Both the position numbers and the translations under genes were made by a program. Shown here one piece after another: positions 26,214 through 32,164 of a DNA stretch of 55,646 bases. Source of the stretch: Candidatus Azobacteroides sp. (GTDB lineage: Bacteria > Bacteroidota > Bacteroidia > Bacteroidales > Azobacteroidaceae). Position 1 is the first letter of the stretch. Each line of letters opens with the position of its first letter. The notes beneath the pieces are model-generated. The model had not been told where the DNA came from, ran no database searches, and saw only the letters and a program-made list of their open reading frames with translations. Location of the stretch: assembly GCA_009783445.1 (NCBI GenBank), contig WRFY01000119.1:1-55646 (forward strand), read 5' to 3'.

Positions 26214-26498
26214 ATGAATTCCTCAGAATTAACCGCAGCTTTATCACAACGACTTCAGTTGTCAAAAACGGAAGTCAACAAGAGAATTGACGATATTGCA
26301 GCTGTAATTACAGCTGAATTAGTCAAAAAGAATACCGTTTCGCTGGGCAATATGGGAAGCTTAGAAGTAGTAAAAAGAAATGAAAGAATTAGCGTGAATC
26401 CCTCGTCGGGGAAAAAAATGCTGATTCCTCCCAAACTGGTTGTGAAGTTTAAGATGTCCAATTCGTTGAAAGATCGATTAAAAGACCTTAAGCCATGA
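26214..26498 (+). CDS. HU family DNA-binding protein
   Basis: A 94-residue HU/IHF-type protein (SSELTAALSQRLQLSKTEVN, IDDIAAVITAEL, VSLGNMGSLEVVKR, then the arm RNERISVNPSSGKKMLIPP and a final VVKFKMSNSLKDRL). It would bind and bend DNA as a dimer. It is atypical in lacking the usual GRNPxTG arm sequence. The ATG at 26214 is chosen; a longer upstream frame would overlap rimO. Its last bases overlap the ATG of the following gene, which begins with a related HU-like domain, so the two may form a heterodimer. Confidence 0.88.
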   Translation: MNSSELTAALSQRLQLSKTEVNKRIDDIAAVITAELVKKNTVSLGNMGSLEVVKRNERISVNPSSGKKMLIPPKLVVKFKMSNSLKDRLKDLKP

Positions 26499-28192
26499 AT
26501 GAGAAAATAAACATACAAAGTTTAGTAACCCTTTTTGCTGAAAAATCAGGCCTCACAAAAAAAGAAGCGGAAGCTTTTTTGAAAGAATTTTTTACGGTGG
26601 CTCATGAAGGTCTTCTCAGTGATAAAATTATGAAAATAAAAAATCTGGGAAATTTTAAACTTATAGTTGTAGAAGATCGTGAAAGTATAGATATAACCAA
26701 TGGTAGCCGCGTCTTAATTCCGGCTCATTACAAAGTAAATTATTCCCCAGATGCTCAATTAGCCGAGACAATTAACGAACCCTTTTCCTTGTTTGAAATT
26801 ATAGAAGTGCGCCATGAAGCCGGAAAATTAGAACATATCCGAAAAGCACGAGTTGAAACAGGGGCAGAAAAACCAGCAGAAGCTGCAAGCATTGAACCTA
26901 TAACAGAAAAATTGACCAGGAAAGAATTTCGTGATTACGAAGAAAATACCGTTCAGGAAACAATAGACGAAAATATTATTCCAGAACCAATTATAGAAAA
27001 ATCAATTCAGGAATATAAGAAAGAAATTAGGATCCGGGAAACGGATGAGGAAAGTTTGAGTGATGAAGGAACTATAGCAGAGTTTGCTTCCAGTTCACAG
27101 GCAAGACCTACGTGGGAAACCGTTGAAGAACCTCAAGAAAAGTTAAGTCCAATTGACGAAGAACAGGAAGAGCAAGAGGAACAAGAACAAGCGCAGGAAA
27201 TACAAAAAAAAGAACAAGAGAAAAATCAAGAAGAAATAGAAGAACAAGAAGACCTAAAAGAAGAACAGGAACAAGATCAGGAACAAGATCAGGAAGAAGA
27301 GGAGGAAGAACCGGAAGAGGAATTGTTTTTCATTCCCGAAGCTGATCCTTATGAAGAATTCATTCTTGAGCAAGAAGCACAGAGGATGCGGGGGACCGAA
27401 AAAAAATTAACTTTCTCTATCGACGAAAAAACGCCTATCCAAGAGGAACCGCTTGGAGAAGAGGAAGAAGTTCTTGAGGAACCGTTTGACGAAGAAGAAG
27501 CGGTGGACGAGGAGGAAGCCTCTGTTGAAGAATTAAAGGAAGCCTCTGTTGAAGAATTAACAGTTGAAGAACCGTCCCCTGCAGAATTACCTCCGCCTAA
27601 AACCATCAGTCAGAAATTTTCCGAAATAATAGAGAACAAAAAAGAAACAATCAGGGAAGACAAAAAGACGTTTTATGAGTGGGTCGTTTATCTGTCGATT
27701 ATTTTGATTATTGCGGGCGTTTATTTGTACTTTGAACACGAAGAGCGTTTGCAAGCTGAATATGTAAACAGTTTTTTACATCAGTTTGACGATAATCAAG
27801 AAATAGAACAATCCGCAACGACAGGAAAAACGTCTTCCGAGATTTTCTTCAGGGAAAGGGAGCCGCTTCCCAGAGCGTCGGACACCCTTGTTGATAACCC
27901 AATTGTTAATAACCCGATTGCAAAGATTGATGCAGACAACAGCAATATAATAAAAAAACGACGAATTGTCGCAGGAGAACGATTGACTTTAATTGCGTTA
28001 AAAGAATACGGACATAAATCGTTCTGGGTTTACATCTATCAGGAAAATAGGGATCGAATCAAGAATCCAGATAATGTTCCTGTGGGTACTGAACTGATTA
28101 TTCCGCCTGCATCCAAATACGGAATAGATAAGAACAGCAAGGAATCCATTCAGAAAGCGGATGAATTAGCCTTGCAGCTAATGTCCAAGTAA
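26495..28192 (+). CDS. HU-like domain + acidic linker + transmembrane segment + LysM protein
   Basis: A 565-residue protein. Residues about 1-95 are HU-like (VTLFAEKSGLTKKEAEAFLKEF, KIKNLGNFKLIVVEDRES, GSRVLIPAHYKVNYSPD). A Glu/Gln-rich linker (about 115-385) follows, including an 8-codon repeat encoded at 27514-27560. One transmembrane segment (WVVYLSIILIIAGVYLYF, about 395-413) comes next, and a C-terminal LysM-like domain (RRIVAGERLTLIALKEYGH, VPVGTELIIPPA, about 490-540) ends it. With no signal peptide the N terminus should be cytoplasmic and LysM periplasmic, so it could join the nucleoid to peptidoglycan. The linker means the strand composition is skewed. Function is not established; the layout is clear from the sequence. 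Confidence 0.82.
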   Translation: MNEKINIQSLVTLFAEKSGLTKKEAEAFLKEFFTVAHEGLLSDKIMKIKNLGNFKLIVVEDRESIDITNGSRVLIPAHYKVNYSPDAQLAETINEPFSLFEIIEVRHEAGKLEHIRKARVETGAEKPAEAASIEPITEKLTRKEFRDYEENTVQETIDENIIPEPIIEKSIQEYKKEIRIRETDEESLSDEGTIAEFASSSQARPTWETVEEPQEKLSPIDEEQEEQEEQEQAQEIQKKEQEKNQEEIEEQEDLKEEQEQDQEQDQEEEEEEPEEELFFIPEADPYEEFILEQEAQRMRGTEKKLTFSIDEKTPIQEEPLGEEEEVLEEPFDEEEAVDEEEASVEELKEASVEELTVEEPSPAELPPPKTISQKFSEIIENKKETIREDKKTFYEWVVYLSIILIIAGVYLYFEHEERLQAEYVNSFLHQFDDNQEIEQSATTGKTSSEIFFREREPLPRASDTLVDNPIVNNPIAKIDADNSNIIKKRRIVAGERLTLIALKEYGHKSFWVYIYQENRDRIKNPDNVPVGTELIIPPASKYGIDKNSKESIQKADELALQLMSK

Positions 28193-29953: not shown

Positions 29954-32164
29954 ATGAATACTGTGACACCTATTTTTTGGATTATCCCTTTGGCGTCTGT
30001 CTTAGCCTTGGCGTTTGCATTCTATTTTTACAAATGGATGTTGGCCAAAGATGAGGGAAACGCATTAATGAGGAAAATAGCCCAGCACGTTCGCGTAGGC
30101 GCTATGTCGTATATCAAGCAACAATACAAAGTTGTGGCCATTATCTTTGTCGTGCTTGTGGTCTTATTTTCCATCATGGCATTTGGCTTTAATTTGCAAA
30201 ACCATTGGGTTCCTTTTGCATTCCTTACCGGCGGATTTTTTTCCGGACTGGCTGGATTTTTGGGAATGAAAACAGCTACTTATGCTTCGGCTCGTACAGC
30301 GCATGCCGCCTCGCAATCTCTGAATAAAGGACTTCAAGTCGCTTTCCGAAGCGGGGCAGTGATGGGCTTGGTGGTTGTTGGTTTGGGATTATTAGACATC
30401 TCTTTCTGGTATATTTTCTTGAATTGGATGATTCCGGCCGACGCGATAGATCCTACGCATAAACTGTCGATTATTACTACCACCATGCTGACTTTTGGTA
30501 TGGGAGCTTCCACTCAAGCGTTGTTTGCCCGCGTAGGCGGAGGTATTTATACGAAAGCAGCCGATGTGGGCGCCGATTTGGTGGGAAAAATCGAAGCAGG
30601 CATTCCTGAAGACGATCCCCGCAATCCGGCAACTATTGCCGACAATGTGGGAGACAACGTAGGCGACGTCGCCGGTATGGGCGCCGACTTGTACGAATCG
30701 TATTGCGGTTCGATTCTGGCTACCGCCGCTCTGGGAGCTTCGGCATTTATCGGCACAAACGATGTAATGAGTCAATACAAAGCGGTTATAGCGCCCATGT
30801 TGATTGCGGCTGTTGGAATTGTTCTATCCATAGTCGGCATTTTTTTGGTTCGTACCAAAGAAAATGCTTCCATAAAAAATTTGTTGCGTTCGCTTTCGCT
30901 GGGAACAAATTTAAGTTCGGTCTTCATCATAGTCGCTACTTTCGGTATTATGTATTGGTTGCAAATGAATAATTGGATAGGGATATCCTGTTCGGTAGTG
31001 GTCGGTTTGCTGGTTGGAGTTATAATCGGTCAAGCAACAGAATATTTTACATCCCAATCGTATAAACCCACCCAAAAAGTAGCCCATGCCGGTCAGACAG
31101 GACCGGCCACCGTCATTATTTCGGGTCTGGGTTTAGGAATGACATCGACGGTCATTCCAGTAGTGGTAGTAGTCATAGGCGTTATTCTTTCGTTCCTGTT
31201 TGCTTCGGGATTCGACTTTAATAATGTAGCAATGGGATTGTACGGAATCGGAATCGCCGCAGTCGGAATGCTTTCGACTTTAGGAATTACTTTGGCAACA
31301 GATGCTTACGGGCCTATTGCCGACAATGCAGGAGGCAACGCCGAAATGAGCGGTCTGGGCAGGGAAGTACGCAAGCGTACCGATGCACTCGATTCTTTAG
31401 GAAATACCACGGCCGCTACGGGAAAAGGATTTGCCATTGGGTCGGCCGCTTTGACCGGATTAGCGCTATTGGCTTCTTATGTGGAAGAAATCAAGGTGGG
31501 TTTGATTCGTTTGGGCCAGCAAACGATAGAAGTTGGAGGAGTAACCATCGAAACAGCAAAAGCCAGCTTCATCGACTTTATGAATTACTACGAAGTGAAC
31601 TTGATGAATCCCAAAGTACTCTGCGGAATGTTTTTGGGTTCAATGATGGCTTTTCTTTTCTGTGGATTGACCATGAACGCCGTGGGTCGCGCAGCCAGCA
31701 GTATGGTGGAAGAAGTTCGCCGTCAGTTCCGTACTATCAAAGGAATTATGACCGGAGAAGCGGAACCCGATTATGCCCGTTGCGTTGAAATTTCAACCAA
31801 GGGCGCTCAAAGAGAAATGGTACTTCCGTCGTTATTAGCTATTATCATACCCGTTGTGGTTGGTTTGATTTTCGGAGTAACGGGAGTAATGGGATTGTTG
31901 GTCGGCGGATTAAGCGCCGGATTTGTACTGGCTATATTTATGGCAAATTCAGGAGGCGCGTGGGACAATGCCAAAAAATATATAGAAGAAGGCAATCATG
32001 GAGGAAAAGGATCCGACGCTCATAAAGCTACCGTTGTGGGAGATACAGTAGGCGATCCGTTCAAAGACACTTCCGGCCCCAGTCTGAATATCTTGATCAA
32101 ACTGATGAGTATGGTTGCGATTATCATGGCGGGCTTGACAGTTGCCTGGAGTCTTATTAATTAA
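29954..32164 (+). CDS. hppA: Membrane-bound ion-translocating pyrophosphatase
   Basis: A 736-residue membrane pyrophosphatase with about 16 hydrophobic segments. It hydrolyses pyrophosphate and pumps H+ and/or Na+ outward. The substrate site is plain: [40 protein letters not shown], then [17 protein letters not shown] and the C-terminal [29 protein letters not shown] has Ala where potassium-independent enzymes have Lys, so this should be the potassium-dependent class (family knowledge). Whether it moves H+, Na+ or both cannot be decided here. It is transcribed alone, from its own -7 element to the inverted repeat at 32174-32230. Confidence 0.96.

Follow-up and report, generated by a model that had tools for sequence, protein, structure and literature searches.

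The closest described systems to the gene pair studied here are the HU-CCDC81 proteins of Bacteroidetes, which reportedly carry a transmembrane (TM) helix and a SPOR domain and for which Burroughs, Kaur, Zhang and Aravind are said to have predicted, in Cell Cycle in 2017, a role in chromosome partition. Like them, the protein encoded in our window, a stretch of 55,646 nucleotides from a Candidatus Azobacteroides genome, has an HU-superfamily head inside the cell, one TM helix and a domain of a peptidoglycan-binding type outside, the sides being predicted. The HU-CCDC81_bac_1/2 (PF18174/PF18175)-TM-SPOR proteins have tandem divergent HU domains and SPOR, whereas the window protein has a canonical PF00216 HU domain and LysM, and a profile search with it gave no match to PF18174, PF18175 or SPOR. 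As proteins of this kind have a predicted partition role, the idea of a tether between nucleoid and wall has a precedent.

Two other groups resemble the parts. IHF alpha/beta and HU (PF00216) share the HU fold, and here too two non-identical subunits are expected to pair; the difference is that one subunit bears a linker, a membrane helix and LysM, and its arm is nearly neutral. The Kbp/YgaU-type and contractile-injection-system LysM proteins resemble the C-terminus in LysM sequence and fold, but the window protein has no BON domain and its LysM, predicted to be periplasmic, ends a membrane protein. Among the papers searched, none joins HU, LysM and Bacteroidetes in the sense of a tether. One paper names genes for HU and for LysM in B. 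thetaiotaomicron, at two unrelated loci (PMC10434189), and the main text of the GeneTack paper (PMC3711429) mentions neither LysM nor Parabacteroides. We found no description of the form with canonical HU, LysM and a constant HU partner, and it is apparently uncharacterised.

The gene order in the window is ftsY, rimO, HU1, HU2-TM-LysM, rpoN and an ORF at 29954-32164, which, read by eye, we take to be a membrane pyrophosphatase. HU1 (26214..26498, + strand) encodes a free HU/IHF protein of 94 residues (PF00216, E 3.9e-24). Its stop codon (26496-26498) lies within the start of HU2-TM-LysM (26495..28192, + strand), the two genes sharing the four bases ATGA. The second ORF is intact, with an ATG start and 565 codons, and encodes a single-pass membrane protein of 565 residues. 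The two overlapping genes are best explained as one module.

The initial annotation read the second protein as an HU-like domain, a linker, one TM helix and a LysM-like domain in a single polypeptide, and the PF00216 match, hydropathy, a family profile and predicted folds all agree with it. HU2 residues 7-94 (26513..26776, + strand) match PF00216 with E 1.3e-14 and 54.6 bits, against a cut-off of 22.4; the score for NCBIfam TIGR01201 (HU_rel), which asks for more than 68.6 bits, was 20.5 bits. The AlphaFold2 (AF2) model of the N-terminus has a mean pLDDT of 87.5 and the full HU topology of two helices, beta saddle, beta arm and C-terminal helix. Searched with Foldseek, this model had HU/IHF structures as its top matches, the best being the HU 5lvt (E 7.8e-8), with TM-scores by target of about 0.7.

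The LysM domain (residues 488-539, 27956..28111, + strand) was recognised by profile and fold. Pfam LysM (PF01476) did not match the window sequence alone but matched 15 of 36 homologues, and a profile of those 36 homologous C-termini found E. coli Kbp (7pvc, E 2.3e-11) and the LysM effector Ecp6 (E 5.8e-6) in the PDB. The AF2 model of the C-terminus, also with a mean pLDDT of 87.5, has the order beta-alpha-alpha-beta, and Foldseek matched it to LysM domains (best E 1.1e-3, probability 1.00). After the domain comes a C-terminal helix (28112..28189, + strand; residues 79-94 of the modelled fragment) with the motif KYGIDxxxxxSxxKA, which alignment shows to be conserved in Bacteroidales. Going by the fold, the domain probably binds peptidoglycan; it need not do so, since its best relative, Kbp, is a potassium-binding protein.

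Between the two ends, the window protein has a single TM segment at residues 393-411 (27671..27727, + strand; Kyte-Doolittle hydropathy 1.95). No signal-like N-terminus was seen in the window protein or in any of 63 homologues. Lysine and arginine are more frequent on the N-terminal than on the C-terminal side of the helix in 55 of the 63, with means of 4.0 and 1.5 (Wilcoxon p 1.4e-10, although the sequences are related and so not independent events). The charge bias and the lack of a signal-like N-terminus together place HU inside and LysM outside, so the HU domain is predicted to be cytoplasmic and LysM periplasmic, the topology proposed at the outset.

The linker (residues 106-392, 287 residues; 26810..27670, + strand) is of low complexity and predicted to be cytoplasmic. 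It is indeed acidic, as had been noticed, with about 34% aspartate plus glutamate against 12% lysine plus arginine. The further suggestion of a spacer or DNA mimic found no support, and roles as DNA mimic or length ruler were rejected, as the linker varies from 28 to 309 residues across the 63 homologues. The segment from the helix to the C-terminus stays within 123-207 residues in the same proteins.

A free HU gene lies immediately upstream in all 63 loci, and also in the extra Dysgonomonas-group loci L189-L207. In one relative (L140:1011-2334) the two genes form a natural fusion, a single ORF with HU1 (residues 9-96), HU2 (107-193), linker, TM helix with a run of ten T (T10) and LysM. Further tandem or partly degraded HU pairs occur at L136, L137, L148, L158 and L167, and in other relatives HU1 is joined to the motif VNxPFAxFExxEL with most of the HU2 domain gone. 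Gene fusion and constant adjacency make it most likely that HU1 and HU2 form a heterodimer, in keeping with the earlier guess that the overlapping HU gene encodes a partner.

The two HU domains differ in their arms. A basic arm with a DNA-intercalating proline at its tip is typical of the DNA-bending members of HU/IHF, though not of the whole family. In the window the HU1 arm is strongly basic with an NP tip (RNERISVNPSSGKK), and in Bacteroidales HU1 has a mean arm charge of +5.9 and an NP tip in 89%. The HU2 arm of the window protein is near-neutral and has no tip proline; in Bacteroidales its mean charge is +0.7 and the NP tip is present in 0 of 36. Past the HU helix, HU2 has an extension that is not part of HU (residues 94-105, NEPFSLFEIIEV; 26774..26809, + strand), in which N94 is invariant (n=63). 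This is the HU2 hallmark motif, VNxPFAxFExxEL.

With the tip proline missing and much of the arm charge gone from Bacteroidales HU2, the HU pair could bind protein rather than DNA. It would then be an adaptor like the CCDC81-type HU domains, and the protein would serve as a scaffold of the envelope or of division that docks through its HU fold. We regard this as rather unlikely, but the decay of the HU2 arm and the good conservation of the extra motif, which in several relatives outlives most of the HU2 domain, make it the strongest rival to a tether. Against it stand the strongly basic, NP-tipped arm kept by HU1, and the NP tip kept by HU2 in 27 of 27 sequences from a second class of the phylum, which makes a DNA-binding ancestry of HU2 likely. 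The loss of the tip proline was rejected as proof against DNA binding and is not decisive alone, since the main HU of the window's own genome also lacks it, yet has a basic arm (+6). Judged from its sequence, HU2 probably does not bind DNA through its HU domain without a partner.

A direct link between chromosome and wall through one protein, as first proposed, is therefore only partly borne out: topology and folds fit, but the HU2 arm is near-neutral. As the basic arm sits in HU1 and not in HU2, any real tether would be built from two proteins. In it, HU1 would pair with the HU part of HU2 as a heterodimer, and the basic, proline-tipped arm of HU1 would grip DNA. By its acidic linker and single helix, HU2 would anchor this dimer in the inner membrane, LysM would hold peptidoglycan in the periplasm, and the module would thereby join the nucleoid to the envelope. 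This is the best explanation we can offer, and we think it about evenly poised between right and wrong. From fold and charge we infer the contacts with DNA and wall; heterodimerisation and any part in positioning or segregating the nucleoid are likewise putative. The presence in the same genome of a second protein combining an HU-superfamily head, a TM helix and a wall-binding domain, HU-CCDC81-TM-SPOR, was counted in favour of a tether. Nucleoid positioning and segregation in Bacteroidota seem to have been little studied, and if the explanation is true the gene pair would give a direct handle on both, in tractable Bacteroidaceae.

The second protein of the same genome (L113:658-1890, G000:C123) has 410 residues, with two HU-CCDC81 domains (PF18174 E 6.5e-15, PF18175 E 5.8e-15), a TM helix and SPOR (E 7.2e-6). 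No separate HU gene was seen beside it on its contig; its neighbours, read by eye, resemble a gene for ribosomal protein S16 and genes for polysaccharide export.

Where relatives have LysM, the domain is strongly conserved, but some show none, so contact with the wall is not always needed. Two Bacteroides genes (L039:4994-5756 and L041:4994-5777) encode HU2 and the TM helix in 254-261 residues, with no LysM found in the gene, showing that this part can be lost; nor was LysM found in the retrieved stretches of L160, L164, L173 and L174. Such genes would suit a membrane-anchored HU acting on DNA at the membrane, at sites of gene regulation, replication or transertion, with LysM serving localisation or protein contacts and bearing no load. 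So would the apparently optional LysM of the Fermentimonas clade, described below. The strong conservation of LysM, in either reading frame, speaks against this reading, which we consider improbable.

The architecture is a conserved family in two classes, far above chance. Full-length homologues were found in the window's own genus and in Dysgonamonadaceae, Dysgonomonas, Coprobacter, Mediterranea and Prevotellaceae genomes. In the family holding Mediterranea, 65 of 81 genomes have matches at E 1e-20 or better, some of them less than full length, and at E 1e-12 there are matches in 61 of 247 Bacteroidales genomes, a count that takes in HU-only and LysM-only matches. The family is common yet not universal in Bacteroidales. 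A family in another class of the phylum (f48, suspected to be Balneolaceae) has the same order of HU, linker, TM helix and LysM, and supplied the second-class HU2 sequences with the NP tip. This recurrence, in dozens of genomes and two classes, already refutes the idea that an HU gene was joined to an unrelated membrane protein by chance or artefact, an explanation that can be virtually dismissed.

The genes further upstream vary by class. The architecture does recur next to rimO at many loci of Bacteroidales. In the second class it does not, and hemW-like and other genes were read there by eye. As rimO is absent beside the second-class loci, we place it outside the system, and rimO and ftsY were rejected as functional partners.

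Programmed transcriptional slippage on tracts of nine A or nine T (A9/T9) is described in bacteria for Thermus dnaX and for IS elements (PMC1088944). The Fermentimonas group, a sister clade, has a comparable feature: in 49 distinct loci a long run of T lies where the TM helix ends, T10 in 46 (L114-L118, L124-L149, L151, L154-L158, L161, L162, L165-L167, L170-L172, L184), T9 in two (L153, L169) and T11 in one (L168). As in the A9/T9 systems a long homopolymer run would be expected to yield two products; here, however, the gene context is new and the frame that encodes LysM has been switched repeatedly. The window gene has no run of this type, and the run is also absent from the Dysgonomonas-group outgroup loci L185, L186 and L189-L207.

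The codon phase of the run is of two kinds, CTT TTT TTT TTC for the most part and GCT TTT TTT TTT in L143 and L166. LysM is in frame in 28 T10 loci (24 plus four) and in the frame reached by deleting one T in the other 18, and in the 44 loci with computed tails a LysM-free frame reaches its stop codon after at most 29 codons. In a tree of HU1 plus LysM (FastTree, 179 columns), T10 is basal to the group; the LysM frame then switched several times, and the run was lost in a few cases. T8 and T9 runs are scarce in other parts of the same stretches, and T10 runs are almost confined to the TM-helix site. As TTT makes up 335 of the 510 phenylalanine codons in these genes, the chance of meeting the pattern TTT TTT TTC by itself is about 0.15 for each independent lineage.

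This suggests programmed transcriptional slippage, a prediction from sequence, giving forms with and without LysM. Downstream frame changes would then be nearly neutral. Replicative phase variation was also considered and is disfavoured, as the run stays ten T long with LysM in either frame. Many of the T10 loci come from metagenome assemblies; several lie on contigs of more than 3 Mb (G636, G631, G632, G623), where assembly error is less likely. A wider picture, in which the two-protein nucleoid-to-wall tether extends across both classes and the strength of its wall link is set by forms with and without LysM, hard-wired in the Fermentimonas clade through slippage at T10, is tentative and somewhat doubtful. 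Slippage in this sister clade would provide a natural experiment on the need for wall attachment.

Two minor observations concern related genes. The window's genome encodes another membrane protein, of 628 residues (L112:1654-3540, G000:C121), with a LysM clearly related to that of HU2 (E 1.7e-20), a very long linker rich in glutamate, lysine and arginine, and a weakly HU-like head (probability 77%). At L051:3529-4888 and L117 the reading frame of rimO continues directly into the T10-bearing TM segment and the HU part is absent, an arrangement that is possibly the result of a deletion or an assembly fault.
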